Positions 33,433 to 49,395 of a DNA stretch of 64,000 nt are shown piece after piece. A program made the translations under genes and the position numbers. The number at the start of each line of letters is the position of its first letter. The stretch's first letter is position 1. Origin of the DNA: Methanocella paludicola SANAE. GTDB taxonomy: Archaea > Halobacteriota > Methanocellia > Methanocellales > Methanocellaceae. Location of the stretch: the NCBI RefSeq assembly GCF_000011005.1, contig NC_013665.1, forward strand, positions 930,001-994,000. Direction: 5' to 3'. Below the pieces are notes generated by a model. The model worked only from the letters and a program-made list of their open reading frames with translations. It did no database searches and had not been told where the DNA came from.

Positions 33433-36400
33433 ATGGATTTTTTCGAGTGGTTCGCCGAGCGCACGAGCGATGGTGCCAATAAAAGGTACTTGAACGATGA
33501 GCAGAAACGTGCCATAGAAGCTGCAAAGGGCGCTATCCTAGTCGTCGCCGGCGCCGGCACCGGTAAGACCACGATGATCACGGCGAAGGCCGCTTATCTC
33601 ATTAAAGAGAAAAAGTTGAAGCCTGAACGGCTTATTATGCTCACCTTCTCCCGGGAAGCGGCTAAGCACATGAAAGATGAAATCGTAAGGATATTACCCG
33701 AAGCTCGAGACGTATATGCCAACACTTTTCACTCCTTTTGCTATGAGTTTCTCCGGGACCATTCGGCGAAGACCGGCATTACGGACGATTATCAGGTACT
33801 GGATGAGGCGAATGCTAAGTTCCTGATGTATAAAGAGCTTGATGTCCCGGCTTATTGGGTCTCGATCTATGTTAATACTATTCAGAGGGCAAAGGACCTG
33901 GATATTTCTCAAGAAGCTTATGAAGGGTACATTTCCCGGCTTAAGGCTCAGCTTGACGAGTATGCGCCCGGCGCTTCTGATCTGGCTGACGAAGTATCCA
34001 AGGCCACAGTGAGGATCAATACGATGCACCTGGAGCCTCCGACGAAGGCGCTCCGGGAGGAGAAAAATTTCCTGACGGCGTTCATTGAGGCGTACGAGGA
34101 GCATGAGAAATATACAGCGTTTTTAGAGGCCTGGAAAGGCTATGAGAAGCTGAAGTCAGAAAAGAAAATGCTCGACTACGCGGACATGATCAAGATGGTC
34201 ATCGACTACTGCCAGGCCTGGGGTGACGATGCCCTGGCGGAACTTTATGATTATGTCATCGTGGACGAGTTCCAGGATACTAATCGGCAGCAGTTCAAGC
34301 TGTTAAAGATACTGGCCTCGAAGTGCGGCGACATAACCGCTGTGGGTGACGAGAACCAGGCTATTTATGCGTTCAGGGGCGCATATCCGGAGAATATCGG
34401 CGAATTCACAATCGATTTTAAGGCTGACGTAAAGAACCTTACTGAGAATTACCGCTCGACTAATGCGATCTTAAGGACTGCTCACAGGCTTATTGTCAAT
34501 AATTACGATGACCCGGAGGAGACTAAGCTGTTGAAGTCCGCTCTTGGTGTTGAAGGCGACAAGGTGAAGCTGATAAGGACGTCAAACCCTAAAGAGCAGG
34601 CAAGAAGGGTAATCGAAGAGATTGAGCGCATCGTTGAAGATGATATCGATTTTAACCGTATCGCCGTATTATTCCGTTCACATTCCTCCGCGAATGCAGT
34701 CCAATCAGCATTTGAAAGCCGTAGCATCCCGTTTCAGCTTATTAGTAATAACGGATTTTTAAAACGGCCCGAGGTAAGGACGGCTCTCGCTTACCTGTAT
34801 GTCATCGCTAACCTGGAAGATCCGCGTTATGGGGCAGACCAGATGTGGTGGAAGCTCCTGCATTACAAATACGGTCTGACGATGAAGGACTCGCACATAC
34901 TGGCAAAAGCGGCAAAGCGTGATACCATCCAGAACGTGCTTCTGGGGAAGCTGCCGGATGCACTATCGTGGGATGGGAAGAAAAAGATCAACTCGCTGCT
35001 GGCTAAGATAGAGGAGTTGAGGAAGAACAAGAATAAGTCGTTGTCGAATTTATTGCTGGATGTTTACGAGGCATCCGGATTGTCCCGGGAGCTCTCACAT
35101 GAGTCGACCCGGACTAGCCGCATATGGATGTTGAACCTGAGATACCTGCACGACCTGGTTGCCGGGTTCGAGGACTTTTACGGCGCTGACTTAGCCGGGT
35201 TCATCGAGTACATGCGCATGCTTGATGAGCTGGGTGAAGATCTTGATGCGCCCACTTTAAAGGAAGCTCAAGGGGTCGTGCTCATGACCTGCCATGGCGC
35301 AAAAGGCTTAGAATACGACTACGTGTTCATCGTCGACCTGGCTAAGGATAAATTCCCTATCACGGCTGGCGGCCGGGCGCCGCTATTGCCTGACGAGCTC
35401 AACGACCGCTTCAGGGATATCTTTGAGGCCGAATGGGAGAGCGATAAAGAGCTGGACGAGGCGTTGAAGGCCCGGAAGCGAGAGCTGCGGCTGAAGGAAG
35501 AGCGGCGGCTGGCATACGTGGCCTATACTCGGGCGAAGAAGGAGCTTTATCTCTGTCATCCGCAGTCGTATGGCGAGAACGAGCGCAGCCCGTCGATGTT
35601 CATCGCTGAGTCGTGCTTTGAGGATAATAGCGTCCACGACGATATCGAGCTCATCCAGGACGATGAGGTAAAAGTCGGAGAGATGGCGAAGGATGGCGCC
35701 CTGGATAAGAAAAAGGACGAGATCAAGAGGCTGGTGCTTTCGACGATCGATTCGGAGCCTCAGCTGGCGCTTTATAATTTATTGTTGTACCAGGGTCTGT
35801 GTTGTCATAATCTGCCCTCTGGCATTCCTGAAGCGGCGAGGGCGAGAGAAGATGCAGCCCTGATCATGAAAGACATCGGCGATGGGACGCCTCTCGGGTT
35901 GAAGTTCGACCCCGAGGAGGTCGTTTTATCCCATTCATCGCTGAAGATTTACCGTGACTGTCCCAAAAAGTTTGAGCTTGCGCGGCTGCTGAGGATGCCA
36001 TCGAGGTACGATGACGAGGAGGAGGGCGAGGGAGCCCTGGGATTCGGCACGTTCGTTCATGAAGCCCTGGAACTTGCGGCGAAGAATAAGGTGAAGTCGA
36101 GGCAGGAGCTCGATGATATTGCCGCTGAGCTGCTAAAAGAGCCCGGTTATAAGGATATTGATGTAAAGCGGGCTAAGGTCATCTTCGATACGTTCTGGGC
36201 GCGCAACAGGACTAAGCTCGGTAATGTGGTCATGACAGAGCAGGCGTTCAGTTTCGAGCTCGGCGGGTTCAGGTTCTCCGGGAAGATCGACCGTGTGGAC
36301 GAGCTGAATGGTAATGGTGAGGTAGAGATCATCGATTATAAGACTGGCCGGGAGCCGTCTAAAGAGGACCGGGAGAGCCAGTTGTTGCTTTATAAGCTGG

Positions 36401-36696
36401 CTTTTGAGTATGACCCTGCTTTGAAGGCGATGGGATATAAGCCGATGAACCTTACGCTGGAGTTGTTAGAGGCGGAGAAGCCGAGGATATTCCAGGTCGA
36501 CGATGATGGATTCATGGTGTGCACTAATGGGCGGTGCGTTAAGGCGAATGTCGCTGAAGTTGAGGCCGGTTTACTGGAACTCGCTGAGTGTATTAAGCAT
36601 GATTACGAGAACGGTTTCGGGGTGAAGGAGGATTGCGGCGGTACTATGGGTGGGGGGAGTAGTTGTGAGTACAGGATGTACTGCCCTAGGTGGTGA
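33433..36696 (+). CDS. UvrD-type helicase fused to a RecB-like nuclease with iron-sulfur cysteines
   Basis: 1087 residues. The superfamily 1 helicase motifs run in order: VVAGAGTGKTTMI (37-49), DEFQDTNRQQ (about 277), GDENQAIYAFRGA (motif III), NYRSTNAIL (IV) and CHGAKGLEYDYVF (V), and VAYTRAKKELYL (VI). The C-terminal 250 residues are a PD-(D/E)XK nuclease: RDCPKKFELARLLRMP, GTFVHEALE, GKIDRVDE and EIIDYKTG. Cys in YRDCPKK and in the final EDC...SSCEYRMYC segment is the Cys-x(n)-Cys-x-Cys-x-Cys pattern of AddB/Cas4-like iron-sulfur nucleases. It is an end-processing helicase-nuclease merged in one chain. Normal AddAB complexes split these roles; single-chain forms are known in archaea. Divergent from rmuC. 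Confidence 0.9.
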   Translation: MDFFEWFAERTSDGANKRYLNDEQKRAIEAAKGAILVVAGAGTGKTTMITAKAAYLIKEKKLKPERLIMLTFSREAAKHMKDEIVRILPEARDVYANTFHSFCYEFLRDHSAKTGITDDYQVLDEANAKFLMYKELDVPAYWVSIYVNTIQRAKDLDISQEAYEGYISRLKAQLDEYAPGASDLADEVSKATVRINTMHLEPPTKALREEKNFLTAFIEAYEEHEKYTAFLEAWKGYEKLKSEKKMLDYADMIKMVIDYCQAWGDDALAELYDYVIVDEFQDTNRQQFKLLKILASKCGDITAVGDENQAIYAFRGAYPENIGEFTIDFKADVKNLTENYRSTNAILRTAHRLIVNNYDDPEETKLLKSALGVEGDKVKLIRTSNPKEQARRVIEEIERIVEDDIDFNRIAVLFRSHSSANAVQSAFESRSIPFQLISNNGFLKRPEVRTALAYLYVIANLEDPRYGADQMWWKLLHYKYGLTMKDSHILAKAAKRDTIQNVLLGKLPDALSWDGKKKINSLLAKIEELRKNKNKSLSNLLLDVYEASGLSRELSHESTRTSRIWMLNLRYLHDLVAGFEDFYGADLAGFIEYMRMLDELGEDLDAPTLKEAQGVVLMTCHGAKGLEYDYVFIVDLAKDKFPITAGGRAPLLPDELNDRFRDIFEAEWESDKELDEALKARKRELRLKEERRLAYVAYTRAKKELYLCHPQSYGENERSPSMFIAESCFEDNSVHDDIELIQDDEVKVGEMAKDGALDKKKDEIKRLVLSTIDSEPQLALYNLLLYQGLCCHNLPSGIPEAARAREDAALIMKDIGDGTPLGLKFDPEEVVLSHSSLKIYRDCPKKFELARLLRMPSRYDDEEEGEGALGFGTFVHEALELAAKNKVKSRQELDDIAAELLKEPGYKDIDVKRAKVIFDTFWARNRTKLGNVVMTEQAFSFELGGFRFSGKIDRVDELNGNGEVEIIDYKTGREPSKEDRESQLLLYKLAFEYDPALKAMGYKPMNLTLELLEAEKPRIFQVDDDGFMVCTNGRCVKANVAEVEAGLLELAECIKHDYENGFGVKEDCGGTMGGGSSCEYRMYCPRW

Positions 36697-36897: not shown

Positions 36898-37926
36898 TTA
36901 TTTATTTATTGATATTACTCCGCTTTCTAAACCCCTCATTAATAATTCTTTATATGAATTATAAATAGTATAAGCTTCACCTTTAAGTGGATAATCTTTA
37001 ACTCTTATAAACTCATCCCTTACGTGATTAGGGACACCAATCAAATCATCAATTGTAATAATCTCTATATTAGGTTCATTTCTTAAAATACGCCATTCTT
37101 TATCAGTAGACTTATTTTTATCTAAATAATTTATATCTTGTCTAGTCATTCGAGGCCATAAATAATAGGCTTTTTTATATGATTTTTGTGATAAGAAATA
37201 ATACTTAGTAAGATACATTTCGCCAACTGCTATATGACCTGCTCTTTGAGAGGATTCTGTAAAGTTCCTTTTATTTCTACCAGTTAATTTTATTACGTAC
37301 CCATTTTTTAATACTGTTGATCTTTCTTTGGCAAAATTTTCCCAACTATTATGATAAGTATTTTTAAATTTGATTTCAAATATCGTATACATAGATTTTA
37401 ATTTGTTATTAATAAATAAATTCAATTTTTCTTTGTCATGAATTGCATATATTAAATCTTTAAGTTCAGATAAATCATCAATGATAAGGTAAGTACCGTT
37501 CTCATATAACGATGCAAAATATGCCATACCAAATAAATCTTCTTGTATTTTATTTTTACCTTTTCTTAAATAATATATTCCAATGATCCCATTTTTAACT
37601 GCACCTAATGCATGATGAAACCTCTGATATTGAGCGTTTCCAGACGACCCTCTATTTAATGCATCCGTACCTTCTAAAGCTATTATGGGCCGAGTATTTA
37701 CCTTTTTACCATTATATTTACATATCCAATTTTCTTTTATAGTCCAACAAGCATCACATGAACCATAAGCAGTCCTATCTACCCCAAAGGTCAATCCGTC
37801 ATCACAAAATAGTCTCATATCATCGTTGCTAGATTCCGGAAATATTCTCAAATCTAATCCATTAATTGTGTACCCTAACTTATCAATAATTTCTCTTTTA
37901 ATAATTTCATCACTCGATAAAGACAT
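36898..37926 (-). CDS. Restriction-endonuclease-like protein of the RM operon
   Basis: 342 residues, last gene of a four-gene minus-strand operon, starting 1 base after the 359-aa gene ends. The N-terminal 110 residues hold acidic and lysine-bearing strands (DDMRLFCDDGLTFGVDRTAYG, then PIIALEGTDALNRGSSGNAQYQRFHHALG) in a nuclease-like order; the E of ALEGTD and the conserved QYQRFHHALG helix recall type II enzymes such as those of the PD-(D/E)XK class. No zinc finger. The protein is AT-rich in coding sequence, as are its partners. The endonuclease role is inferred mainly from operon position and is moderate. Confidence 0.5.
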   Translation of the reverse strand: MSLSSDEIIKREIIDKLGYTINGLDLRIFPESSNDDMRLFCDDGLTFGVDRTAYGSCDACWTIKENWICKYNGKKVNTRPIIALEGTDALNRGSSGNAQYQRFHHALGAVKNGIIGIYYLRKGKNKIQEDLFGMAYFASLYENGTYLIIDDLSELKDLIYAIHDKEKLNLFINNKLKSMYTIFEIKFKNTYHNSWENFAKERSTVLKNGYVIKLTGRNKRNFTESSQRAGHIAVGEMYLTKYYFLSQKSYKKAYYLWPRMTRQDINYLDKNKSTDKEWRILRNEPNIEIITIDDLIGVPNHVRDEFIRVKDYPLKGEAYTIYNSYKELLMRGLESGVISINK

Positions 37927-37927
37927 G

Positions 37928-39007
37928 TTATAACCTTGGTATCATATCTATTATCTCTTTATACGTTAATCTATTGATAAATTGTACTATATCCCATGTT
38001 GAAGATATTTTCTTATGATTATATTCAATATAAAAATCATTGAATTCATCATTTGTTAAATTGGCTATTAAATAATATTTAAAATAATTTGATATCCAGT
38101 CATCGTATTTACGATGATATTTTTCATCGATGATAAAATTTTCAGTTGGTTCTATAGCTTTTAATTTATAGTTATTATCTATATAAATTAATCCGTAAAA
38201 TTTCTTTGACAGTTTGATTTTTGAAGTATAAATTTCATAACCTTTACAAAATAGTCCAGTACTTAGGTATTTATCTAATTGTTTTGTCATTTCTTTTGTA
38301 CTTGTCTTAGCTTCACCAACTATAAAATTATTATCTTCTATTATATATTCATTACATAAATTTTTAAAACCAAGTCTAATTAGTGATAGTTCTAAAATGT
38401 TAATACAATTAAGAGGAATATGATAAGTATTTATAAAGTTATTATATTTTATAGATCTATACCCTCCAAAGTCGGGGGTTCCATAAGAATGGCTTAGTGG
38501 GATCTGTGTTTCCACGATATATTTTTCCTTTTTAAAATATTCACATGTTAAATATTCTAAAAATGGTTCCATGCCATTTCCGTTTTTAGATTTTTCTATT
38601 CTTTGTATGATGTAATCAGTAGAATTAACTCCTATTTTTTCGTAAAAAGTCTTTAATTTATTCTGAAGCTCTAATTCTCTATTAAATTCTACCGGAACTA
38701 TTATCTTGTCATTATTAAACAAGTATTTTCTTCCTAGGTACAAGTTATATGGGGTATTTTTTAATGTAGTATTATCAAATAATCCGGTAACAAATTTATA
38801 ATCTAGAGAGTTATAAAATAGTTTAGTAAGCCCTTTAGGTGTAAATGGAAAGACTGGATTGTCTAGGTAACCAGCACCTGTTATAGATGAAAAAATAAAT
38901 GCAGAAAATTTATCCATTTTAATACCGGGCCCTAATTCAGTATTAACTATTTTAAAATTAAAATTTTCTTTCATTATTTTAATAAATTTATCAGCATTGA
39001 TTTCCAC
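37928..39007 (-). CDS. PD-(D/E)XK-type nuclease of the RM operon
   Basis: 359 residues. A core near the middle reads YGTPDFGGYRS (P-D with a Gly-rich strand) and further on NFIVGEAKTS (E-x-K), the two halves of a restriction-nuclease active site. The preceding helix (FLEYLTCEYFKKEKYIVETQIP) also matches nuclease folds. The gene overlaps the end of the 508-aa methyltransferase by 17 bases and runs directly into the 342-aa gene. It is a plausible endonuclease or nuclease subunit. The gene is one of the most AT-rich in the window. Confidence 0.65.
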   Translation of the reverse strand: MEINADKFIKIMKENFNFKIVNTELGPGIKMDKFSAFIFSSITGAGYLDNPVFPFTPKGLTKLFYNSLDYKFVTGLFDNTTLKNTPYNLYLGRKYLFNNDKIIVPVEFNRELELQNKLKTFYEKIGVNSTDYIIQRIEKSKNGNGMEPFLEYLTCEYFKKEKYIVETQIPLSHSYGTPDFGGYRSIKYNNFINTYHIPLNCINILELSLIRLGFKNLCNEYIIEDNNFIVGEAKTSTKEMTKQLDKYLSTGLFCKGYEIYTSKIKLSKKFYGLIYIDNNYKLKAIEPTENFIIDEKYHRKYDDWISNYFKYYLIANLTNDEFNDFYIEYNHKKISSTWDIVQFINRLTYKEIIDMIPRL

Positions 39008-40517
39008 TTTTTATTTCACCCATAATTTTATTTAACTTCTTTATAGATAAACCATCTAAATTAATCTTATATTCATTATAGTATAACTCAATCAGTAATT
39101 TTGATACAAGCATATCATATATTTTTGGGCAGTCATCTATATTACTTTTATTAATTATGTCTTCTAATAATGATTCTAATGAATATTGCTTGTTATATGT
39201 ATGCCCAAAATATTCTCCTCTTTCGAATGTTAAGTATAAATCCGATTTTGGTGAAAATTCCGACCAATTAATATTATATGAATTACTCACTGTACTTTCA
39301 ATATTAATATTTATTAATTTGAATCCATTCCTTTTAAAAACACTTAATACATCTTGCCAAATATCGAATTCTTTATTATGGAAACAAATCGTAAACTTTT
39401 TTCCATTTTTTAAGATTCGCCTACCTTCTTTTAGTGACATTTCAAGAAGTTTTATAAACTCTTTTTTACCTTTATCTTGTACAGGATTTATAATAACTTC
39501 TTCCCTATTATCATAGTTTAAACCTAACCACGAATTCCATACTAGCGATAGCTCGGAATATTGGATTGCTTCACCATATGGCGGATCCGTAATGATATAA
39601 TCAACTGATTCATCCTCTAGTCCAGTATTAAATGAAGATTGATTAAAAAATTTATAATCGCCAATTTTTTTCTTTATTTTAGATTTTAATAATTTTTTAG
39701 ATTTTATTACTAAATTTACCCTATCCAAATATCTCATCCAAACATTCTCTTCAAAATAATCATCAGGTATCCAATAGTTATTAACACCTAATGGTCGGAC
39801 GTTTTCACTTTTCAGTTTACTTGTATGAAGCAAGGTATTTGAAAATGCTAATAAAAATAACTTTTCATATTTTAGATTATTGCTCTTTATGCAATGCAAT
39901 AATTCCGATAAGGCATATAGGTTTTTATTAGTAAATATATCAGTTATTTTTCGGACACCTTTATAAGAAAATCTATCTTTATAAAACTTTAACGGAAAAT
40001 TATTTTCTGGAACCCATTTGTCAATCTCATACACAATATTTAATTGATCTTTCTCTTGATTTGTTAATTCTCTTTTTATTTTTGTTTTACCGCAGTTATA
40101 ACAATAAAATACACCAGACTCTTTACCTTTAAACTTAGGCCCAATGTTTATGTGGTCAATTACTAGATTCTTTCCACAATAAACACATTTATCTACTACA
40201 GCATATAATTGATTAAATAAAGGCTCTAGTTCTCCTTTTATTAACCCTAATTCATCAATAAATTCATCTTCATTGAAATCGCATGTGATTGTATTTTCCG
40301 TGATAAAAATGGCTATCGGATTTAAATCATATCCAATAAAATTCCTATTTTGTGATATAGATTCTAAAGCTGTAACACCACTACCGACAAATAAGTCAAC
40401 AACTATATCTCTTTCTTTAGAATTAGTTGTAATTAATTTATTAATTGGCCTCCATGGCTTTCTTGCCCAATATTTATGGATTTTATATATTTTTGAAAAA
40501 TCACTTGATGTAGCCAA
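38991..40517 (-). CDS. DNA methyltransferase (amino-methylase) with zinc-ribbon insert
   Basis: 508 residues. The SAM-binding loop comes first (DLFVGSGVTALES, motif I, about 45) and the catalytic motif DPPYGEAIQYSEL (motif IV, about 313) much later, so the order is class alpha and the target is N6-adenine or N4-cytosine. Between them lies a zinc ribbon (CVYCGK ... CYNCGK, about 110-145), which may act in target recognition. The N-terminus KIHKYWARKPWRP recalls DUF1156-type methylases. The gene starts 3 bases after the end of the previous methyltransferase gene; two methylases in one operon suggest methylation of an asymmetric site by separate strands. Confidence 0.85.
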   Translation of the reverse strand: MATSSDFSKIYKIHKYWARKPWRPINKLITTNSKERDIVVDLFVGSGVTALESISQNRNFIGYDLNPIAIFITENTITCDFNEDEFIDELGLIKGELEPLFNQLYAVVDKCVYCGKNLVIDHINIGPKFKGKESGVFYCYNCGKTKIKRELTNQEKDQLNIVYEIDKWVPENNFPLKFYKDRFSYKGVRKITDIFTNKNLYALSELLHCIKSNNLKYEKLFLLAFSNTLLHTSKLKSENVRPLGVNNYWIPDDYFEENVWMRYLDRVNLVIKSKKLLKSKIKKKIGDYKFFNQSSFNTGLEDESVDYIITDPPYGEAIQYSELSLVWNSWLGLNYDNREEVIINPVQDKGKKEFIKLLEMSLKEGRRILKNGKKFTICFHNKEFDIWQDVLSVFKRNGFKLININIESTVSNSYNINWSEFSPKSDLYLTFERGEYFGHTYNKQYSLESLLEDIINKSNIDDCPKIYDMLVSKLLIELYYNEYKINLDGLSIKKLNKIMGEIKSGNQC

Positions 40518-40520
40518 GCT

Positions 40521-41576
40521 TTATACCTCTTTCTTTAATATGATGCAGTAATGGTGCAAAATATTACTAGCCCAACTATAGGGGTATCCATATGGTGATA
40601 ATTGTATTTTATCCTGTATCCAAATCTTCTCATCTTTAAGTACATATTTATTAGACAATGACTTAGCAAGGTCCCATGCAAGCGGGTATAACTTACCCCC
40701 TTTCTTAATGTTTTTAACGATAATAACAATATAAGCTCCTTTTACAAGCTTATCAAATATATCTAAATAAATTTTTGTTAATTCACCCACGAATTGGTCA
40801 TAATCAGCGATATTGCCAAGATCATTGGATAAATCGGAATACTTAACATCGAGTCCGTTGCCTTCCCTTGTTTTTTTAAATCCATCTGTACTCCTGTTTA
40901 AAACATCCCAATATGGTGGGGAAGATATACAAAAATTAAATTGTTCATCATTATATAATTCTTTAATATTTCTTGCATCTGCGTTGTATATATTTTTATA
41001 GAATTCAGGTACGCGCTTTAAAATAATATCATAATATTTTTTATTTAACTCAGTACCATATCCAATTCTATTCGTTCTCTTACATGCAACTAACGTACTT
41101 CCTATACCAGCAAAAGGATCAATTACCTTCATGCCTTCCTTCGTAAAAAAAAGTATGAAGTCTTCGATCATTGTAGGGGAATACGTTGCAGGATGATCAA
41201 CACAATTTTCGCAAATTTCTTGCTCTTCTTTTAAATCTTTTTGTAAAGCGTTGAAAACGAACCAACTGCATGTAAATTTTGTCCATTCTTTACCCGTCAA
41301 ATAATTTAATGAATTTTTAATATCATAAGCGCCTTGGTCTATATCCAGTATAATAGCATGAGCAGAGTCTATATTTCCATTTGGATCATATAGTTTGACT
41401 TTATCCCATTGACTAATGAACCTTTTAGGGATATTATCTTTATAATTATTATATATATTATTTAGCATTAATTTAGCTTTTTCATTAGATTTGTCATCTA
41501 GACAAGGAACGATTGATTTATTATTCTTATAATAGAAATAATATTCTTGTACATCTGAAATTAATTTTTTTTGCAT
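40521..41576 (-). CDS. Second DNA methyltransferase of the RM operon
   Basis: 351 residues. Motif I is DPFAGIGSTLVA (about 152) and motif IV is SSPPYWDVLNRS (about 215); the S-P-P-Y-W form is typical of N4-cytosine methylases, although N6-adenine cannot be excluded. The N-terminal 120 residues are helical and not part of the catalytic core. It is the first gene of the minus-strand operon, with the other three genes following at 3, -17 and 1 base. Its upstream gap (41577-41732) is AT-rich and probably carries the promoter. Confidence 0.85.
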   Translation of the reverse strand: MQKKLISDVQEYYFYYKNNKSIVPCLDDKSNEKAKLMLNNIYNNYKDNIPKRFISQWDKVKLYDPNGNIDSAHAIILDIDQGAYDIKNSLNYLTGKEWTKFTCSWFVFNALQKDLKEEQEICENCVDHPATYSPTMIEDFILFFTKEGMKVIDPFAGIGSTLVACKRTNRIGYGTELNKKYYDIILKRVPEFYKNIYNADARNIKELYNDEQFNFCISSPPYWDVLNRSTDGFKKTREGNGLDVKYSDLSNDLGNIADYDQFVGELTKIYLDIFDKLVKGAYIVIIVKNIKKGGKLYPLAWDLAKSLSNKYVLKDEKIWIQDKIQLSPYGYPYSWASNILHHYCIILKKEV

Positions 41577-41732
41577 AAGACCCCTGCTAATCTTTAGACG
41601 TAATACCTTATCCTCTCTAATCAGATTAATAGAATTTATGTCTTTTGTATATGCGAGGTGTAACTAATATGGAACTGACTTAAAATTATCTTCTCTAATA
41701 ACTGTTCTTATAGAATGGATCTAATATCAACT

Positions 41733-43034
41733 TCATCCAAAAACTAATTCGTAGGCAAACTCGGCTCGCTTTCTTTCACAACCGATTCCTTGCATGCAAA
41801 GTAATTTATCCATACGGTTTATGTCCACTGGTCTAAGTACTACTTGAGCCCGCACACCACCACGTATAGGATCATATAAATTAATCCGTTGTTCATTATT
41901 CTCAGAACTAACATTATCTGTCGTAGGATATAATATAGTAGAGTTCTCTCCCAGGTTACGGCTCTGGGCATATATGGAAAGTTGATATAGCATTTCCCGC
42001 GGCAATGGTAGCTTCCAAAGGTCCCTGTATTTGGTGTCCAGAATTGCTACCACCTTATTCATATTGTCCCTTACTATGAAATCCGGATATAGGTGTGGTG
42101 GTCTCCGTTTCAATGGATTATAATTATTATCATAGGCCATAAGTCCCTTTAATGGGGGCTCGTCATATACCTTGTAATCGTGGAGATAATCGTGCAGGTA
42201 TCTAGATATGAGGACCTGAAAAAAATGGTTCATATCGAACAAGAAACCTGGCAGATTCATGCCATCCTTTTGTTCCAAATCTATACCCTGCGATGACATA
42301 AGCATTTTTATAATGCTTATAGATGGTTGGTAAGCCCTTGTTAAACGGCTCATATCCATATCAACTACACTCATCATCTCCCAATTTAACTTTACAGGAC
42401 TGACAGTTTCTCGAAGGATAAATGACAATCGCCGTAGCCTGCCCTTTAACTTCTGGCTACTTGTCAAATTAGAGCCCATAATCAGCCCTGCAAGGAGCAC
42501 CCTGTTCATAGTATTGTCATCTGATCTTGGGTAATATTTACACGGAAGGCTTTGCTTGCTTATGCCGCCTCGTCTTGCTATCCTCTGTATATTGAGAATT
42601 CCGCGAGGTATTTTGAGCTCAGAATCTGTAGGCTTGTATTTTTTATGGAGTCCTCTGGATATCAATATGTTAGCTTCTATTGAGAGTTGGTACAAGAGCA
42701 AATCGTGGAAATTCATTTTTCCAGTGCTATACTCCGTATTTTTATAAAGGTCAAGGTCTTCAAGGCTATATGCGTATCTTAGCAATCGTAAAAGGCTATC
42801 TCCTTCTATTTTTGGTTTTATGGAAATTTGAATATCTCCAAGAACAATTTTCCCCACGTATGATGTAGTACTCAGGAATAAGCCGTCTTTAAGCCCATAA
42901 ACCTTTAATACTCCTGAGTCGCTCAGCCTGTTTGCTAACTTGTTGGTGCTATCGCCTTCGAGGAATATTCCTCTGGTCTTACTTACTTTATTTGGGTGTA
43001 CAGTTTCCCATTCTTTTAAATGTATTTCTTGCAT
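41733..43034 (-). CDS. mcrC: McrC-type subunit of a McrBC restriction system
   Basis: 433 residues. The N-terminal half has the McrC pattern (LLRLLRYAYSLEDLD...IPRGILNIQRIARRGGISKQSLPC, then NTMNRVLLAGL), and the end holds a nuclease core (PDFIVRDNMNKVVAILDTKYRDLW, the D...D-x-K arrangement). McrC cuts DNA near methylated or otherwise modified sites when driven by the McrB GTPase. It starts 3 bases after the end of the McrB gene. GC content is intermediate between the RM operon and the core genes. Confidence 0.9.
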   Translation of the reverse strand: MQEIHLKEWETVHPNKVSKTRGIFLEGDSTNKLANRLSDSGVLKVYGLKDGLFLSTTSYVGKIVLGDIQISIKPKIEGDSLLRLLRYAYSLEDLDLYKNTEYSTGKMNFHDLLLYQLSIEANILISRGLHKKYKPTDSELKIPRGILNIQRIARRGGISKQSLPCKYYPRSDDNTMNRVLLAGLIMGSNLTSSQKLKGRLRRLSFILRETVSPVKLNWEMMSVVDMDMSRLTRAYQPSISIIKMLMSSQGIDLEQKDGMNLPGFLFDMNHFFQVLISRYLHDYLHDYKVYDEPPLKGLMAYDNNYNPLKRRPPHLYPDFIVRDNMNKVVAILDTKYRDLWKLPLPREMLYQLSIYAQSRNLGENSTILYPTTDNVSSENNEQRINLYDPIRGGVRAQVVLRPVDINRMDKLLCMQGIGCERKRAEFAYELVFG

Positions 43035-43037
43035 AGA

Positions 43038-45341
43038 CTATCCAGTTAGTTGCTCTTCCTCACCGGTAGAATCATGCGCTTGAGGTGATTTGGTAATATC
43101 CGGATAATTGACCAATAGGGCATCCACAAGGTTATCCCATTTTGATGGATCGAACAAGCCATCATTGATTCGCTGTTGCTTGACATCGATTATGGTCGTG
43201 CCGAGAATTTTCCCCAGTTTATCATAGTCTTCATAACAATATTCCTCAAGCAATGGTATAATGTCGTCGCGAAGCACGCGACAGAATTTGGAAAAATCTT
43301 TCAACGGTTGTCCATTTTCGAGAAGGTAAGTGTGTCCAATCAAGAGGTTTCGTGCGTCAGGTCCTACATTATCAAGGATACTGCTATTTATTGCATCTAG
43401 CCATGCGCCAAGGGGTATACCATTTATTTGAGCATTGCCGAGTATATCGTAATCTGGCATTAGTTCCACGAACCCAAAGCGTCTCCGCAGGGCTGCGTCA
43501 AGCAATGAGATAGATTTGTCAGCGGTGTTCATAGTGCCAATGATAAACACGTTAGGTGGGACACGTAAGGCATTCCCACTTAATGGGAGTAATACAGGCT
43601 TATTCCTCTTGTCCTTCTCCATTATAGTCATCAATTCGCCAAAAATGCGGGGAGTATCACCCCGGTTGAATTCATCAATAATCAGGTAATAATTATGGAT
43701 GCTACTGGCGGCTTCGGCACATAATTTCTTGAAGATTCCATCCTCTACATTAAAGACCATTTGGCCATTCTCTACCATGGAACGGTATCCTTCGATGAAG
43801 TCCTCATAACCAAATGATGGGTGGAATGTACACATCCTTACTAAGCCGCTTTTATTTTTGTCACCCTCGATCACCCGTTTCTCCTCTTCGGTAAGATCTT
43901 TAAAAGATTTATTGAATGCTGATCGGGATGCTAATTCCTTGGCAGCCTTCTCCGCCCAATATGTTTTTCCTGTGCCTGGAGGTCCATACAGAATGACCTG
44001 GCTTTTACGTTCTAACACAGACTGGATTCTACTTATGATACCTGTGAGTATTGGCAGAGGAGGTTGGGGTGCTACATAAGGTTTGTTAAGATATTTTTCA
44101 ACAGTCATTAAAGTACCTTGACTGGTTATTTGATATACAGGCAAGTCAGTATCCTCTATACCCATCGCTTCCTCGTCGTTCAGGGAAAGCCATTCTACCG
44201 GTAGTTGATGGGATAGTTCATAGGATGGGACATAAGAATAATTCCCAATAACATTACCCGCTCCGAGAATATGATATCCAGATGTTATAAGCACTAAATC
44301 GCCCTCGTTAATCCTGTTAGCAAAGTAGAAGACCTGTTGTGCGGCTTTTGTAGATGCAGGTGGAGATAAAGAGTACTGTGACTCAATAGATTTTTTGATA
44401 CTATCCAATCCTGATCGTGAATCAGGGGTTTGGGATATATCTCCAATATCAGACCAACTAATAGCTATACTGTTGTTACTCCGCATCCATTCCCATTGTT
44501 TTTTCCCCGGACCATCATCGTTGATACTTATCCTCCAGTAATTATATGGTCGCCCATATTTCAGCCTCAGGATTGTCGTTAAATAGATGATTGGCATACC
44601 TAGTTCTTTGGCCATGGCAACATATTTCCCGGCACAAATAAACCTTCCAACGCCCTCAGGCGGCATAACCAAAGCTTTTCTTAAATAAAACCTCTGATAA
44701 TTAGCATTGTGGAAATCATCCAGCTTACTTGGATATAGTAGGCTAAGATATTTATGGCCCCAGGAGACCTGGCTAAAATAGGCGAAAGCAGGATCCATGC
44801 GCTTCACATTTAATAATTTTTTCTGGAGCTCCTCGTACTCCGCATCGCTAGCATTCTCTGGCAGATCGCCCATAAGTTTGGAACACTCTAAAAGCTCTTC
44901 ACGCTGGCCCCTGGCGATCCTTATCGCCTCATCCTCGGTAATAATTTTTTGCTTTTGCGGCGATCCAGTAACCCAATCCCCTTTCCTGCTCTGATAAATA
45001 TAGAATTTTAATGCGCTACCACCACCAATACTACCGAAAATATTTGTTTCGAACTCCTCGTCATTCTTGAATTCTAACCAGTATGCCAAGCTGTCACGGC
45101 TGTTCTTGCCATGCATGTACTCAAGGAGTGCTTTCCCATCTAAACTGGCAAGAACCTCGGGGTTGAATTTTTTACGAAAATTGCTAAGATTATTATTGAT
45201 TGACGTTAGAGACTGTAAATCACCTTTTCTCACACTCTCTTCATAAAATTGTAGTAAATCAGTTTGCATTTTGCTATCTAATACCAAATACGTCACGCCC
45301 TTAACATAATAGGAATTATAGGTAGATGAATTATTCGCCAA
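43038..45341 (-). CDS. mcrB: McrB-type AAA+ GTPase with EVE-like recognition region
   Basis: 767 residues. The C-terminal AAA+ module has the Walker A loop YGPPGTGKTYWAEKAA (about residue 449), Walker B IIDEFNRGDTPRIFGEL, the sensor GTMNTADKS and DAALRRRFGF, all of the McrB pattern. The middle (WRISINDDGPGKKQWEWMRSNNSIAISW to ITSGYHILGAGNV) is EVE/PUA-like and would read modified bases. The N-terminus is a helical region with a MrcB-type domain (LASLDGKALLEYMHGKNSRDSLAYWLEF). It forms the GTP-driven translocation ring that activates McrC, whose gene follows 3 bases later. Confidence 0.9.
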   Translation of the reverse strand: MANNSSTYNSYYVKGVTYLVLDSKMQTDLLQFYEESVRKGDLQSLTSINNNLSNFRKKFNPEVLASLDGKALLEYMHGKNSRDSLAYWLEFKNDEEFETNIFGSIGGGSALKFYIYQSRKGDWVTGSPQKQKIITEDEAIRIARGQREELLECSKLMGDLPENASDAEYEELQKKLLNVKRMDPAFAYFSQVSWGHKYLSLLYPSKLDDFHNANYQRFYLRKALVMPPEGVGRFICAGKYVAMAKELGMPIIYLTTILRLKYGRPYNYWRISINDDGPGKKQWEWMRSNNSIAISWSDIGDISQTPDSRSGLDSIKKSIESQYSLSPPASTKAAQQVFYFANRINEGDLVLITSGYHILGAGNVIGNYSYVPSYELSHQLPVEWLSLNDEEAMGIEDTDLPVYQITSQGTLMTVEKYLNKPYVAPQPPLPILTGIISRIQSVLERKSQVILYGPPGTGKTYWAEKAAKELASRSAFNKSFKDLTEEEKRVIEGDKNKSGLVRMCTFHPSFGYEDFIEGYRSMVENGQMVFNVEDGIFKKLCAEAASSIHNYYLIIDEFNRGDTPRIFGELMTIMEKDKRNKPVLLPLSGNALRVPPNVFIIGTMNTADKSISLLDAALRRRFGFVELMPDYDILGNAQINGIPLGAWLDAINSSILDNVGPDARNLLIGHTYLLENGQPLKDFSKFCRVLRDDIIPLLEEYCYEDYDKLGKILGTTIIDVKQQRINDGLFDPSKWDNLVDALLVNYPDITKSPQAHDSTGEEEQLTG

Positions 45342-45398
45342 TTAATATACTCTTGCTATTGCATTATATGTAATTGAAATAAAATAAAAAAATGATGA

Positions 45399-46289
45399 TT
45401 ATCTAACATATTCTCGATATGCATCTGCAAAAACTGATTTAATCACTTCTCTATTACCCTCAAACATCCCTTCGTCGATGTTCAATCGTAGGACTGCTCT
45501 TTGTCTATCAATCCCTAATACATCTATGTTACTATTATTAAACTTACTTTTTAATACCTCTAAATCAGATGAACGGATATGGACTCTTAAGAACCTTCTC
45601 ATAGGTATAAACGCTACAAAATTATTAGCCCTATTATTCTGCGTTAATCCAATGTAATAGACATTATATTTTAATGTCAAATTTTGATCAATTTCCTTTA
45701 ATATTTCATAACATTGATCCACTAATTTCATTGAAGTTAACGAGCTTTTATCCTCCCAATAAGACCTATCAACAGGTTCGCCTTTTTCATTATCTTCTTC
45801 ATCAGTACCTAAAGAAGCTTCATCTAATACTTTTGTAAAATTTAACGTTAATGTATTACCTATTTGAATAGCGTTTAATTGTAATGCTATAATTGGTATA
45901 GCTCCATTTAAAAGAGATATTACATTTAAAAATCTGGATGTTATATCTTCAGCCACAATTACTGCACAGTGATCGTAATCTCTGTATCTATTTTGCTCAA
46001 TATCCCAATATTCAATGGCTCTAATTATGTGACTTTCATCGATTTTGCCAAGCATAAGCTCGACTTCATATCTTTTATTATTATCCGCATCTTCAAAGAG
46101 AAGGTCTAGCCTACCAGCTTTTGGTTGCATTCTCTCTTTATCTTTTAATATAAGTTCACCGAGGCCAAGGATTGATGGATCATTAGCAATAAGATCTCTT
46201 ACCCAAAATTCATCAAATAATGGATTATCTTTAATTAGGATTTTCGAACCCTTTACATAAATTAAATTAGCATTTGCTAATTGAGACAT
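45399..46289 (-). CDS. EndoMS/NucS-like PD-(D/E)XK protein
   Basis: 296 residues. After an N-terminal region (SKILIKDNPLFDEFWVRDLIANDPSILGLGEL) comes the nuclease-like core AGRLDLLFED...YEVELMLGKIDESHIIRAIEYWDIEQNRYRD, where the catalytic order D-x(n)-E-x-x recalls DUF91/EndoMS proteins; the lysine normally following Glu is replaced by a Met-Leu stretch, so activity is uncertain. The C-terminal part (DVLGIDRQRAVLRLNID) is a separate alpha/beta domain. It is 57 bases upstream of the McrB gene in the same direction and probably belongs to the same defence cluster. Confidence 0.7.
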   Translation of the reverse strand: MSQLANANLIYVKGSKILIKDNPLFDEFWVRDLIANDPSILGLGELILKDKERMQPKAGRLDLLFEDADNNKRYEVELMLGKIDESHIIRAIEYWDIEQNRYRDYDHCAVIVAEDITSRFLNVISLLNGAIPIIALQLNAIQIGNTLTLNFTKVLDEASLGTDEEDNEKGEPVDRSYWEDKSSLTSMKLVDQCYEILKEIDQNLTLKYNVYYIGLTQNNRANNFVAFIPMRRFLRVHIRSSDLEVLKSKFNNSNIDVLGIDRQRAVLRLNIDEGMFEGNREVIKSVFADAYREYVR

Positions 46290-46396
46290 AAAAAAGTTAT
46301 CGATACGTAGATAATTAAAGATAATTAGATTTTATGGCAATATTTTATTTATTATCACAAATTTTAATCGATGGATAATTATATTATCATATTAAA

Positions 46397-46596
46397 ATGC
46401 TCGAAGGAGTACTCGGACGACTCCATAACGAACATCCGAACCTACCACACAGAGATTAAGAGAGCGCAACTCGCCTATATCTCCTATTGAGATAACATGG
46501 TCGGCTACATCGAGTCCGCCGAAGCCAGGCATCCGGACAAAACTCTGCTGGATACTGCCAGCAGGAACAAGGAAGAGGCCAACGCCGATGTCGAGG
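46397..46596 (+). pseudogene. Decayed gene fragment, interrupted by a repeat
   Basis: A plus-strand frame reads like a helical protein (TNIRTYHTEIKRAQLAYISY, then an in-frame TGA at 46486, then MVGYIESAEARHPDKTLLD) and is cut at 46597, where the sequence becomes part of the dispersed palindromic repeat. No intact copy lies in the window, so it cannot be named. It shows that the repeat end joined or replaced the tail of a once coding sequence. Confidence 0.5.
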
Positions 46597-46795
46597 GCCC
46601 CAGGAAAGTTATAAACCCGTCCTCCGTGGCCTCTGAGCCCTCCCTTTTTTAAAAAAACGCGTATGAGCCTGGGGCTCGTGCATAATAGATGAAAATTTCT
46701 CGAAATTGAAAATATCCTTTGATATCTCCTCTTTTCGAGAATCTTTCATAGGAAATCTCTGTGTAACTTAGTGAACTCCATGTCCCTGTGTGCTA
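46597..46795. repeat. Partial copy of the dispersed palindromic repeat
   Basis: Positions 46597-46645 carry the inner right half of the repeat (taaacccgtcctccgtgg.. ctctgagcc) and 46747-46795 its outer right end (aaatctctgtgtaacttagtg ... ccctgtg). The left half is missing, and about 100 unrelated bases lie between. Confidence 0.7.
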
Positions 46796-46807
46796 TGACA
46801 CGCCACG

Positions 46808-46885
46808 AATGCATAGGGAAATGATGGAGAATATAGAAAAAAAATACAGAACATCAGAGACACTGTCATCATTTCCCTATGCATT
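46808..46885. repeat. Perfect 19-bp inverted repeat
   Basis: AATGCATAGGGAAATGATG at 46808-46826 pairs exactly with CATCATTTCCCTATGCATT at 46867-46885 around a 40-base A-rich spacer. No gene lies in or next to it. It could be a miniature mobile element or a strong hairpin RNA. The following 200 bases (46886-47060) contain scattered cttcgtg/cgtgtc motifs like those in the palindrome at 49553. Confidence 0.75.
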
Positions 46886-47260
46886 TTTACATTAACGTCG
46901 CTCGCTATAACAATAGTTGATATATTTGTCTTATTTTTGTGGCACTTCGTGACTTACGTCATTCGTTCGTGTCTTAATAGCTGTGGACTTGGTGTTTTAA
47001 TTCGCTTAATAGGGGCCTTTGAGTTTTCATGGTTTAATAGTGTTTACAGTGTCTTCACGATTTAGTGTTCGTAAAATCTAATAAAAAATTTTGGGTCTTC
47101 GTGTTACCAAACCGGGGGCTGTACGTGCATCGCAAACCATATACAGGCCAACTAGGTGCTTTAACTATAAAGCAGGAATATTATTTTCTATTTATCCAAA
47201 AAACAAAGAAACATTTTCGCATAATTGCCTATTATAAAATATATTCTCTATGATACATAG

Positions 47261-47452
47261 AAAAACTTATTAAGCACTTGAACAAATATATCCACTGTAC
47301 CAATCACTTACTCGCTTACCCCCTCCTCAGGGTGGATGAGCCAATACTCACATAAAAAACAAACCAACTCAAAATAACCGAACGGTGCTATACCTCCTAA
47401 GAATAGAGTCGCCCGGGAACTGCCTCCGGGCGGCCTATCCCGGGGACTTTTT
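47261..47452 (+). ncRNA. Candidate small RNA 1 (anti-Shine-Dalgarno-containing)
   Basis: A TATA-like box aaaaacttattaag (47261-47274) implies transcription from about 47295. The predicted RNA is Cys-codon-free and without an open reading frame. It contains ACCTCCT (47392-47398) in an unpaired A-rich context, followed by a GC-rich hairpin (gcccggg ... cccggggac) and a T-run at 47448-47452. A second unit with the same order lies at 47592. The spacing, promoter and terminator fit a trans-acting small RNA (inference). Confidence 0.5.
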
Positions 47453-47591
47453 ATTAACTTATGAAAATCCACATTACGATTTTTAAACTCCTTAATACAA
47501 TATGCCAGAATAATTTGTTCTATCAGTAATCGAAAAAAAGTAAAAACTTACAATAAAAATCACAAATATAATAAATTCTATCCATTTAATC

Positions 47592-47890
47592 GAAAAATTT
47601 ATTAAGCACTAGAACAAATATATCTTGTGTAGCAAACAATCTACACTCCATCCCCTGGCCGGGGAACTAACGGGGCATAAGCAGGCAAAACAAATCGATA
47701 GCTAATATAAAAGGTGTCATAATCGCCCACAATCGGGCAACTACTGATAAACGGCCTGTACGATCTTAATTCCTCGGCCAAACCCTTACGATCAAAATTT
47801 CACCTCAGAATTAAAAACGAAAGTGCATTATACCTCCTCTACTGTGGGCCGCTTACTGTACGTGGGTGGGCGGCCCAGAGTAGAATTTTA
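47592..47890 (+). ncRNA. Candidate small RNA 2 (related to the unit at 47261)
   Basis: A TATA-like box gaaaaatttattaag (47592-47606) shares 26 of about 30 bases with unit 1 through ttattaagcact-gaacaaatatat. The RNA would start near 47625. It again carries tatACCTCCT (motif 47832-47838) and ends in a strong hairpin in which TCTACT/AGTAGA and GGGCCGC/GCGGCCC pair, followed by atttta. There is no long open frame. Confidence 0.5.
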
Positions 47891-47965
47891 TTTATCATAT
47901 TTTACCAATTGCCAATATACTCCATGAGAACGTGCAATAGATAATATCCGGCAAATAAGTGTTAA

Positions 47966-47979
47966 TAATTTATTTATTT
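47966..47979 (+). promoter_or_regulatory. TATA-like box; leaderless start of the flavin reductase gene
   Basis: taatttatttattt ends 21 bases ahead of the ATG at 48001, the normal archaeal distance from TATA box to transcription start. The message is therefore probably leaderless, which fits the absence of a ribosome site. Confidence 0.5.
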
Positions 47980-48000
47980 GCACATAATAGACTAATTATT

Positions 48001-49395
48001 ATGCTCTCTTTCGACGTCATCGTCATCGGCTCCGGCGCGGGATTTATCGTCGTCGATAACGCCCTGGCCAAAGGCAAGCGCGTCGCCCTCGTGGAAAAGG
48101 GCCCCCTCGGCGGCACCTGCCTCAACAACGGCTGCATCCCCTCGAAGATACTGATCACTCCCGCGGACATCATCCGCAGCTTCCAGGATGCAAAGGCAAT
48201 AGGCGTCGAAGGGGAAGTTACTAAAGTAGACTTCCCGTCCATCCTCGGTCGTTTCCGGGCTCTCCAGGAGGACGAGCATAAGCACATGCTGGAAGAGATA
48301 AAAGCCTCCAAAAACCTCTCATTCTACCCGGTCGTGGGCGAATTTATCGGCGACTACACGCTCAAGGTCGGCGAAGAGACCATCATGGCCCCGAAGATCG
48401 TCATCGCCTCGGGCAGCAGGCCGGCGGTCCCTCCTATCCCGGGCCTAAAAGAAACAGGATACATCGATAACATCACCCTGCTAGATCTCAAAAAGCTCCC
48501 CGAAAGCCTTGCCATCATCGGCGCCGGCTACATCGGCTGCGAGTACGGCCACTTCTTCTCCGCCATGGGTACAAAAGTTACTCTCATCGGCCGCCCGCCG
48601 GTCGTCCTCGACAACGAGGACCCCGAGGTCAGCGCTGCGATCACGAAAGCCTTACCACGCTACATGGACCTCATGGTCGGCCACGAAGTGACGCGAGTAG
48701 AAAAAAGCGGCAACAAGAAGGCCGTCATCGCCCGCAGCATGAAAGACGGCAAAGAAGTCCGCATCGAGGCTGAGGAGGTCATGCTCGCCGGCGGCCGCCG
48801 CTCCAACTCCGACCTGCTCAAGCCCGAAAAATCCGGGGTCGCGACCGACAAAAAAGGCTTCATCATTGTCAACGAGCACCTGGAAACGAACAAGCCCGGC
48901 ATTTACGCTTTCGGCGATGCCATCGGCCGCTACATGTTCCGCCACACGGCCAACTACGAGGCCGACGTCGTATCAATCAACCTGCTCTCCCTCTTAAAGA
49001 CCGCCGTCGACTTTCATGCCGTGCCCAACGCGGTCTTCACGCACCCGCAGGCCGCCCACGTGGGCATGAAAGAGGCCGAAGCGGTGGCCGCAGGGAAGAA
49101 AATACTGGTCGGCCGTGCCAGATACACGGACACGGCCAAGGGCTATGCGCTCAACGCGCAGGACGGCTTTGTCAAAGTCGTTACCGAAGAGGGAACTGGG
49201 AAAATACTCGGCTGCTCCGTCGTGGGGGAGTTCGCGCCCGAGATCGTGCAGCAGGTCGTATGGCTCATGAACACCCGCGAACAGGATTACACGCCCGTTG
49301 TCCGGGGGCAGATCATCCACCCGGCGATCAGCGAGGTGCTGGGGAGGGCGTTCGGTAACCTGGAGCACCCTGAGCATCACCATAATACAAACTAA
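48001..49395 (+). CDS. Dihydrolipoamide dehydrogenase-like flavin disulfide reductase
   Basis: 464 residues. Start at ATG 48001 (MLSFDVIVIGSGAG); the upstream extension in frame has no homology. FAD-binding GxGxxG is at 10-15, the redox disulfide is GGTCLNNGCIPSK (about 38-50), the NAD(P)H-binding site is IGAGYIGCEYGHFF (about 170) and the flavin/ribityl motif is GIYAFGDAIG (about 300). The C-terminal His-Pro (HPAISEVLGRAFGNL) is the acid-base pair partner of the disulfide. It may act in lipoamide or glutathione/mercuric-type reduction; archaea often use such proteins without a pyruvate dehydrogenase complex. The C-terminus ends in a His-rich tail (EHPEHHH). Single gene. Confidence 0.85.
   Translation: MLSFDVIVIGSGAGFIVVDNALAKGKRVALVEKGPLGGTCLNNGCIPSKILITPADIIRSFQDAKAIGVEGEVTKVDFPSILGRFRALQEDEHKHMLEEIKASKNLSFYPVVGEFIGDYTLKVGEETIMAPKIVIASGSRPAVPPIPGLKETGYIDNITLLDLKKLPESLAIIGAGYIGCEYGHFFSAMGTKVTLIGRPPVVLDNEDPEVSAAITKALPRYMDLMVGHEVTRVEKSGNKKAVIARSMKDGKEVRIEAEEVMLAGGRRSNSDLLKPEKSGVATDKKGFIIVNEHLETNKPGIYAFGDAIGRYMFRHTANYEADVVSINLLSLLKTAVDFHAVPNAVFTHPQAAHVGMKEAEAVAAGKKILVGRARYTDTAKGYALNAQDGFVKVVTEEGTGKILGCSVVGEFAPEIVQQVVWLMNTREQDYTPVVRGQIIHPAISEVLGRAFGNLEHPEHHHNTN

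Follow-up and report, generated by a model that had tools for sequence, protein, structure and literature searches.

Two tandem candidate small RNA genes sharing a promoter-like block and an anti-Shine-Dalgarno 3' module in Methanocella paludicola

Two units arranged in tandem on the + strand of the Methanocella paludicola chromosome are best read as paralogous, lineage-specific small RNA (sRNA) genes whose exposed linker would mask Shine-Dalgarno (SD) sites, a reading that we hold with slightly better than even confidence. Masking of SD sites is the most likely action of the units and stands at about an even chance, whereas non-coding transcription of some kind is likelier and can be called probable. 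The observation itself is somewhat stronger than first stated, and its interpretation is plausible and precedented. Lineage-specific here means not found beyond this species, in a comparison set in which its genome is the only one of the genus. M. paludicola is a methane-producing archaeon of rice fields. Its chromosome, a single contig, comprises 2,957,635 bp, as given in the genome report (PMC3146512), and the window, the whole stretch of 64,000 nt analyzed here (chromosome positions 930001–994000), supplies all positions below unless noted. The units occupy approximately 47260–47452 and 47592–47889, offset by 332 bp, and fall within 1.7 kb of intergenic DNA on the margin of a low-GC island.

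Each unit opens with a 33-bp block at the promoter position (47260–47292 in unit 1 and 47592–47624 in unit 2, both on the + strand). The two blocks are identical at 31 of 33 positions, with the sequence GAAAAA[C/T]TTATTAAGCACT[T/A]GAACAAATATATC, in which a BRE-like GAAAAA precedes a TATA-like CTTATTAAG (47266–47274) and a conserved spacer in unit 1, and a TATA-like TTTATTAAG (47598–47606) in unit 2. Allowing up to three mismatches, the block has two copies genome-wide, both in this pair, against none for a reversed control pattern and none expected in the shuffled window. Local alignment of the two promoter zones scored 65, compared with at most 32 in shuffles. These results bear out the shared promoter-like box described in the earlier note. 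In archaea, the spacing of the BRE and the TATA box puts the transcription start about at the end of such a block, and unit 1 would be expected to start near 47293–47297. A promoter matrix derived from the upstream regions of 29 tRNAs ranked the blocks 1593 (unit 1) and 319 (unit 2) of approximately 128,000 positions. For intergenic DNA rich in A and T, such a score is no more than moderate, and the promoter call consequently leans less on the strength of the block than on its repetition and placement. The candidate sRNAs would thus span 47293–47452 (about 160 nt, with the 5' end taken from the TATA position and the 3' end from the T run) and 47625–47889 (about 265 nt).

The second shared element is located at the 3' end. 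A common linker of about 35 nt, 5' of the terminal hairpin, reads CAACTCAAAAT..AACCGAACGGTGC..TATACCTCCT and spans 47365–47398 in unit 1 and 47801–47838 in unit 2, ending in TATACCTCCT in both; its local score of 25 was equaled by 2 of 1000 shuffles. The 9-mer ATACCTCCT, a motif already noticed in both units, was confirmed at 47390–47398 and 47830–47838. Two copies in the window compare with 0.45 expected, and 5 of 100 shuffles reach two, so the 9-mer alone is mildly unlikely and constitutes weak evidence. The strong part of the evidence is the position of the motif before the hairpin. In a 464-kb sample read on both strands (the window and 20 stretches of this genome), 2 of 52 ACCTCCT sites, both of them here, had on their 3' side a hairpin (folding energy −18 kcal/mol or lower) and then TTTT. 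The anti-SD ACCTCCT of unit 1 (47392–47398) has a predicted unpaired probability of 0.81–0.90 at every base; that of unit 2 (47832–47838) is predicted to be unpaired at 0.95–1.0 for ACCUCC, while its final U pairs into the hairpin in the predicted fold.

The GC-rich 3' hairpins followed by T residues, likewise claimed earlier, were recovered in both units. The terminal hairpin of unit 1 (47405–47450; −28.8 kcal/mol, z −3.98) is associated with TTTTT at 47448–47452 and was matched in a terminator-like scan, and that of unit 2 (47838–47884; −35.5 kcal/mol, z −6.38) is followed by TTTT at 47886–47889. A 9-bp hairpin core starts 10 nt 3' of the motif in both units (47408–47434 and 47848–47874), although in unit 1 this core is a suboptimal alternative (−21.7 kcal/mol) to the more stable extended hairpin. 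When the core was taken in register from an unguided alignment, all nine pairs held, of which five differ and two are changed on both sides. The pair counts on two sequences were not significant (117 of 500 shuffles) and the similarity of the hairpin sequences was within chance (84 of 500 shuffles); hence, we do not claim hairpin covariation as proof, and the conserved core pairing is suggestive only.

Between these two modules, the units diverge. Their middle parts displayed no similarity (150 of 300 shuffles aligned as high), and their upstream flanks aligned no better than shuffles. The earlier description of the units as otherwise different therefore holds for the middles but fails for the linker of about 35 nt before the hairpin (2 of 1000 shuffles). 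Both RNAs fold better than most shuffles as a whole, with z −2.85 for unit 1 (2 of 200 shuffles as good) and z −4.57 for unit 2 (0 of 200), and unit 2 retained z −2.37 (4 of 200) without its terminal hairpin. The middle domain of unit 2 (47656–47780) is predicted to be closed by a long-range helix between UGGCCGGGGAA (47656–47666) and UUCCUCGGCCA (47770–47780), on which the MFE and centroid structures agree, and it has no counterpart in unit 1. In line with the earlier note, no open frame on the + strand is convincing; the longest ones, which begin with GTG, have 33–34 codons, and just one ATG frame of at least 8 codons, 13 codons long, lies wholly within a unit.

Under the favored SD-masking reading, each sRNA gene would have an archaeal promoter of its own on the + strand, and the GC-rich hairpin with its U run would end each transcript. 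The single-stranded 3' linker ending in AUACCUCCU would be exposed, fixed beside the terminal hairpin, and could pair in trans with the SD region of certain mRNAs, blocking 30S binding and thereby repressing translation. The common promoter would express both sRNAs under the same condition, and the diverged middles may give each sRNA a different partner, shape, or additional targets.

To evaluate SD usage and possible targets, we sampled 403 roughly predicted translation starts, drawn from about 16% of the genome. GGAGG was found upstream of 28 of the 403 starts and of 4 in a shifted control interval; an SD system exists in M. paludicola. The perfect AGGAGGT leader, the best match to the motif, preceded a single start among the 403, and in view of this rarity a regulon would have to be restricted or to rely on pairing over fewer bases. 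Duplex energies of the linkers with the 403 starts were not better than those of flank-shuffled linkers with the same core (top-20 mean energy equaled by 41 of 60 controls for unit 1 and 7 of 60 for unit 2), and no near-perfect extended complement of either linker was found elsewhere in the genome. The linker is therefore a plausible pairing element, but its targets are not given by the sequence. The second-ranked start for unit 2 in the sample (L076 +14343; leader GGGAGGAGGG) was not significant; it belongs to a gene that we take, by eye, to be the methyl-coenzyme M reductase beta subunit.

The target data leave room for another explanation, in which the units are structured non-coding RNAs that act by binding a protein or by way of their diverged middles, and CCUCC, beside the terminator, serves as a protein-binding or processing site rather than an mRNA seed. 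Complementarity to targets no better than controls, the scarcity of perfect AGGAGGT leaders (1 of 403), and the sizeable folded middle domain of unit 2 are all in keeping with such a role. Nevertheless, the sole clearly conserved transcribed stretch ends in an exact anti-SD sequence that is predicted to be unpaired in both units, and we regard this explanation as somewhat unlikely.

The distribution of the units is narrow. The Rfam scan, at gathering and permissive thresholds, gave no family match; a match to STnc150 was rejected (E 0.22 and 17.8 bits, where the cut-off is 60). DNA similarity searches of 40 related genomes disclosed no relative, and a 27-nt match in one of them (G036) was dismissed as a chance TATA-like stretch inside an apparent coding sequence with no downstream module. 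DNA similarity, pattern, and covariance-model searches revealed no relatives in three other Methanocellaceae or among another 290 genomes from the phylum, and nothing similar was seen at other sites of the M. paludicola genome. The covariance search that the earlier note had suggested for further family members produced none, as a model of the 3' module returned the two known copies only across 294 genomes of the phylum; one match at E 0.02 was judged to be chance. The exact promoter pattern was absent from GTDB genome contigs and viral contigs, and BLAST against plasmids and phages gave no match. Among the other TATACCTCCT sites in four genomes of the family, none carries a hairpin and T run; these sites resemble coding sequence or ordinary SDs read in antisense. 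Three near-identical stretches of the genome carrying TATACCTCCT (L021, L033, and L036, at genome positions 204408, 1335920, and 1928127) likely represent an insertion sequence. As the searches of other genomes yielded no further family member, the units show no conservation between species, and all of the evolutionary evidence comes from one paralogue pair. The M. paludicola genome paper identified non-translated genes with Rfam, tRNAscan-SE, ARAGORN, and a similar tRNA tool, which would not find the units; both are therefore probably unannotated in the published genome.

Within that one pair, similarity is limited to the promoter and the 3' linker while the rest has changed, and the two RNAs consequently look like paralogues. 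A conserved promoter and 3' linker next to unrelated middles and flanks are a footprint of selection between them. The earlier suggestion of selection on the RNA is supported, as a conserved promoter position, an exposed anti-SD motif, and a terminator-like hairpin around an unrelated middle make up the pattern expected of sibling sRNA genes under selection. The same data could alternatively reflect an old tandem duplication in a low-GC island that left a promoter and a terminator without a functional RNA, the motif being a leftover or chance. The low-GC region at 37–48 kb beside restriction and methylase genes, the lack of homologues elsewhere, and the only mildly unlikely 9-mer would suit this history. 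Neutral decay, however, is not expected to confine similarity to the promoter position and the 3' module, and the stability of both hairpins far exceeds that of shuffles (z −4.0 and −6.4), which makes a functionless duplication unlikely.

The pair is flanked by McrBC-type and DNA-methylase genes on the left and by a dihydrolipoamide-dehydrogenase-like gene, beginning at 48001, on the right. Being on the same strand and about 110 bp upstream of the latter, the units could be its tandem cis-acting leaders (attenuators), yet a promoter-like block and a terminator-like hairpin belong to each unit, a TATA-like TTTATTTAT (47969–47977) stands just before the gene itself, and the units are missing at its orthologues from two other genera in the family; we consider this role very improbable. 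No orthologue of the downstream gene was confirmed in the genome-contig collection. The TATA-like TTTATTTAT is positioned about 25 bases 5' of the ATG of the dehydrogenase-like gene, and transcription of this gene would probably start near its own ATG, as expected for a leaderless mRNA. Finally, the case that the earlier note had set against itself, in which the signal belongs to the − strand and AGGAGGTAT is an ordinary ribosome site of short genes, is rejected as extremely improbable, since the AGGAGGTATAATG present on the − strand of unit 2 leads into a frame of only five codons (MHFRF-stop), unit 1 has no start codon just after AGGAGGT, and the orientation of the T runs and promoter blocks fits the + strand.

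To our knowledge, the mechanism is known for few archaeal sRNAs, and there has been little study of such RNAs beyond Methanosarcina and the haloarchaea. In the open-licence literature, we found no sRNA described in the genus Methanocella and no tandem anti-SD siblings described in archaea. The best reading by analogy is that the units may resemble Methanosarcina sRNA162, sRNA154, and sRNA41 in mechanism and Neisseria NmsRA/NmsRB in arrangement. M. mazei sRNA162 (191 nt) uses a single-stranded, unstructured linker before its last stem-loop to mask an internal ribosome site, and it has homologues in close relatives only (PMC3510493). The units are likewise intergenic and of similar size, with a putative promoter and terminator of their own, a linker before the last stem-loop, and a narrow distribution; this likeness is one of layout, the sequences having been compared only through the Rfam scan and the phylum-wide model search. 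Unlike the units, sRNA162 is a single copy with proven expression and target. Ribosome-binding sites are also masked by loop 2 of Methanosarcina sRNA154 and by sRNA41, the latter on polycistronic ACDS mRNAs (PMC5867862). The units share the archaeal setting and, as proposed here, the masking; sRNA154 differs in that it also stabilizes targets and is conserved across Methanosarcina, and neither of these sRNAs is described as a tandem pair in PMC5867862. Compared with the M. mazei sRNA162/154/41 type, the units have their own putative promoter and terminator, with promoter strength only moderate, no long frame, and, in the predicted folds, an exposed sequence complementary to ribosome-binding sites in a genome with GGAGG-type SDs.

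NmsRA and NmsRB are tandem intergenic sibling sRNAs with anti-SD motifs that are about 70% identical (PMC5362039). As in that system, two adjacent paralogous sRNA genes would share a seed region; in contrast to the bacterial pair, however, the units share only the promoter and 3' module, differ in length (about 160 and 265 nt), and lack overall similarity. Because the middles are unrelated (150 of 300 shuffles), the pair may work like the NmsR family but is not assigned to it. A more far-reaching idea, which we consider a long shot, is a modular design that joins interchangeable, specificity-setting middles to an invariant promoter and an invariant cassette of anti-SD and terminator, such that one regulatory signal would elicit a family of ribosome-site blockers. 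If the SD-masking reading is true, the units would make a compact and testable example of this mechanism for the Methanocellales, in a major rice-field methanogen.

The surroundings of the pair provided several further observations. The low-GC island at 37000–48000, with a GC minimum of 25%, lies directly to the left of the sRNA units and contains two DNA methylases, a McrC-like protein, an AAA+ McrB-like protein, and an unassigned protein of 296 aa. At 33433–36696, a large UvrD-type helicase gene scored high against the Gabija GajB models of PADLOC. In the same intergenic stretch as the units, at 46808–46885, an inverted repeat with perfect arms of 19 nt (AATGCATAGGGAAATGATG / CATCATTTCCCTATGCATT; spacer of 40 nt) is possibly a terminator or the remnant of a small mobile element.
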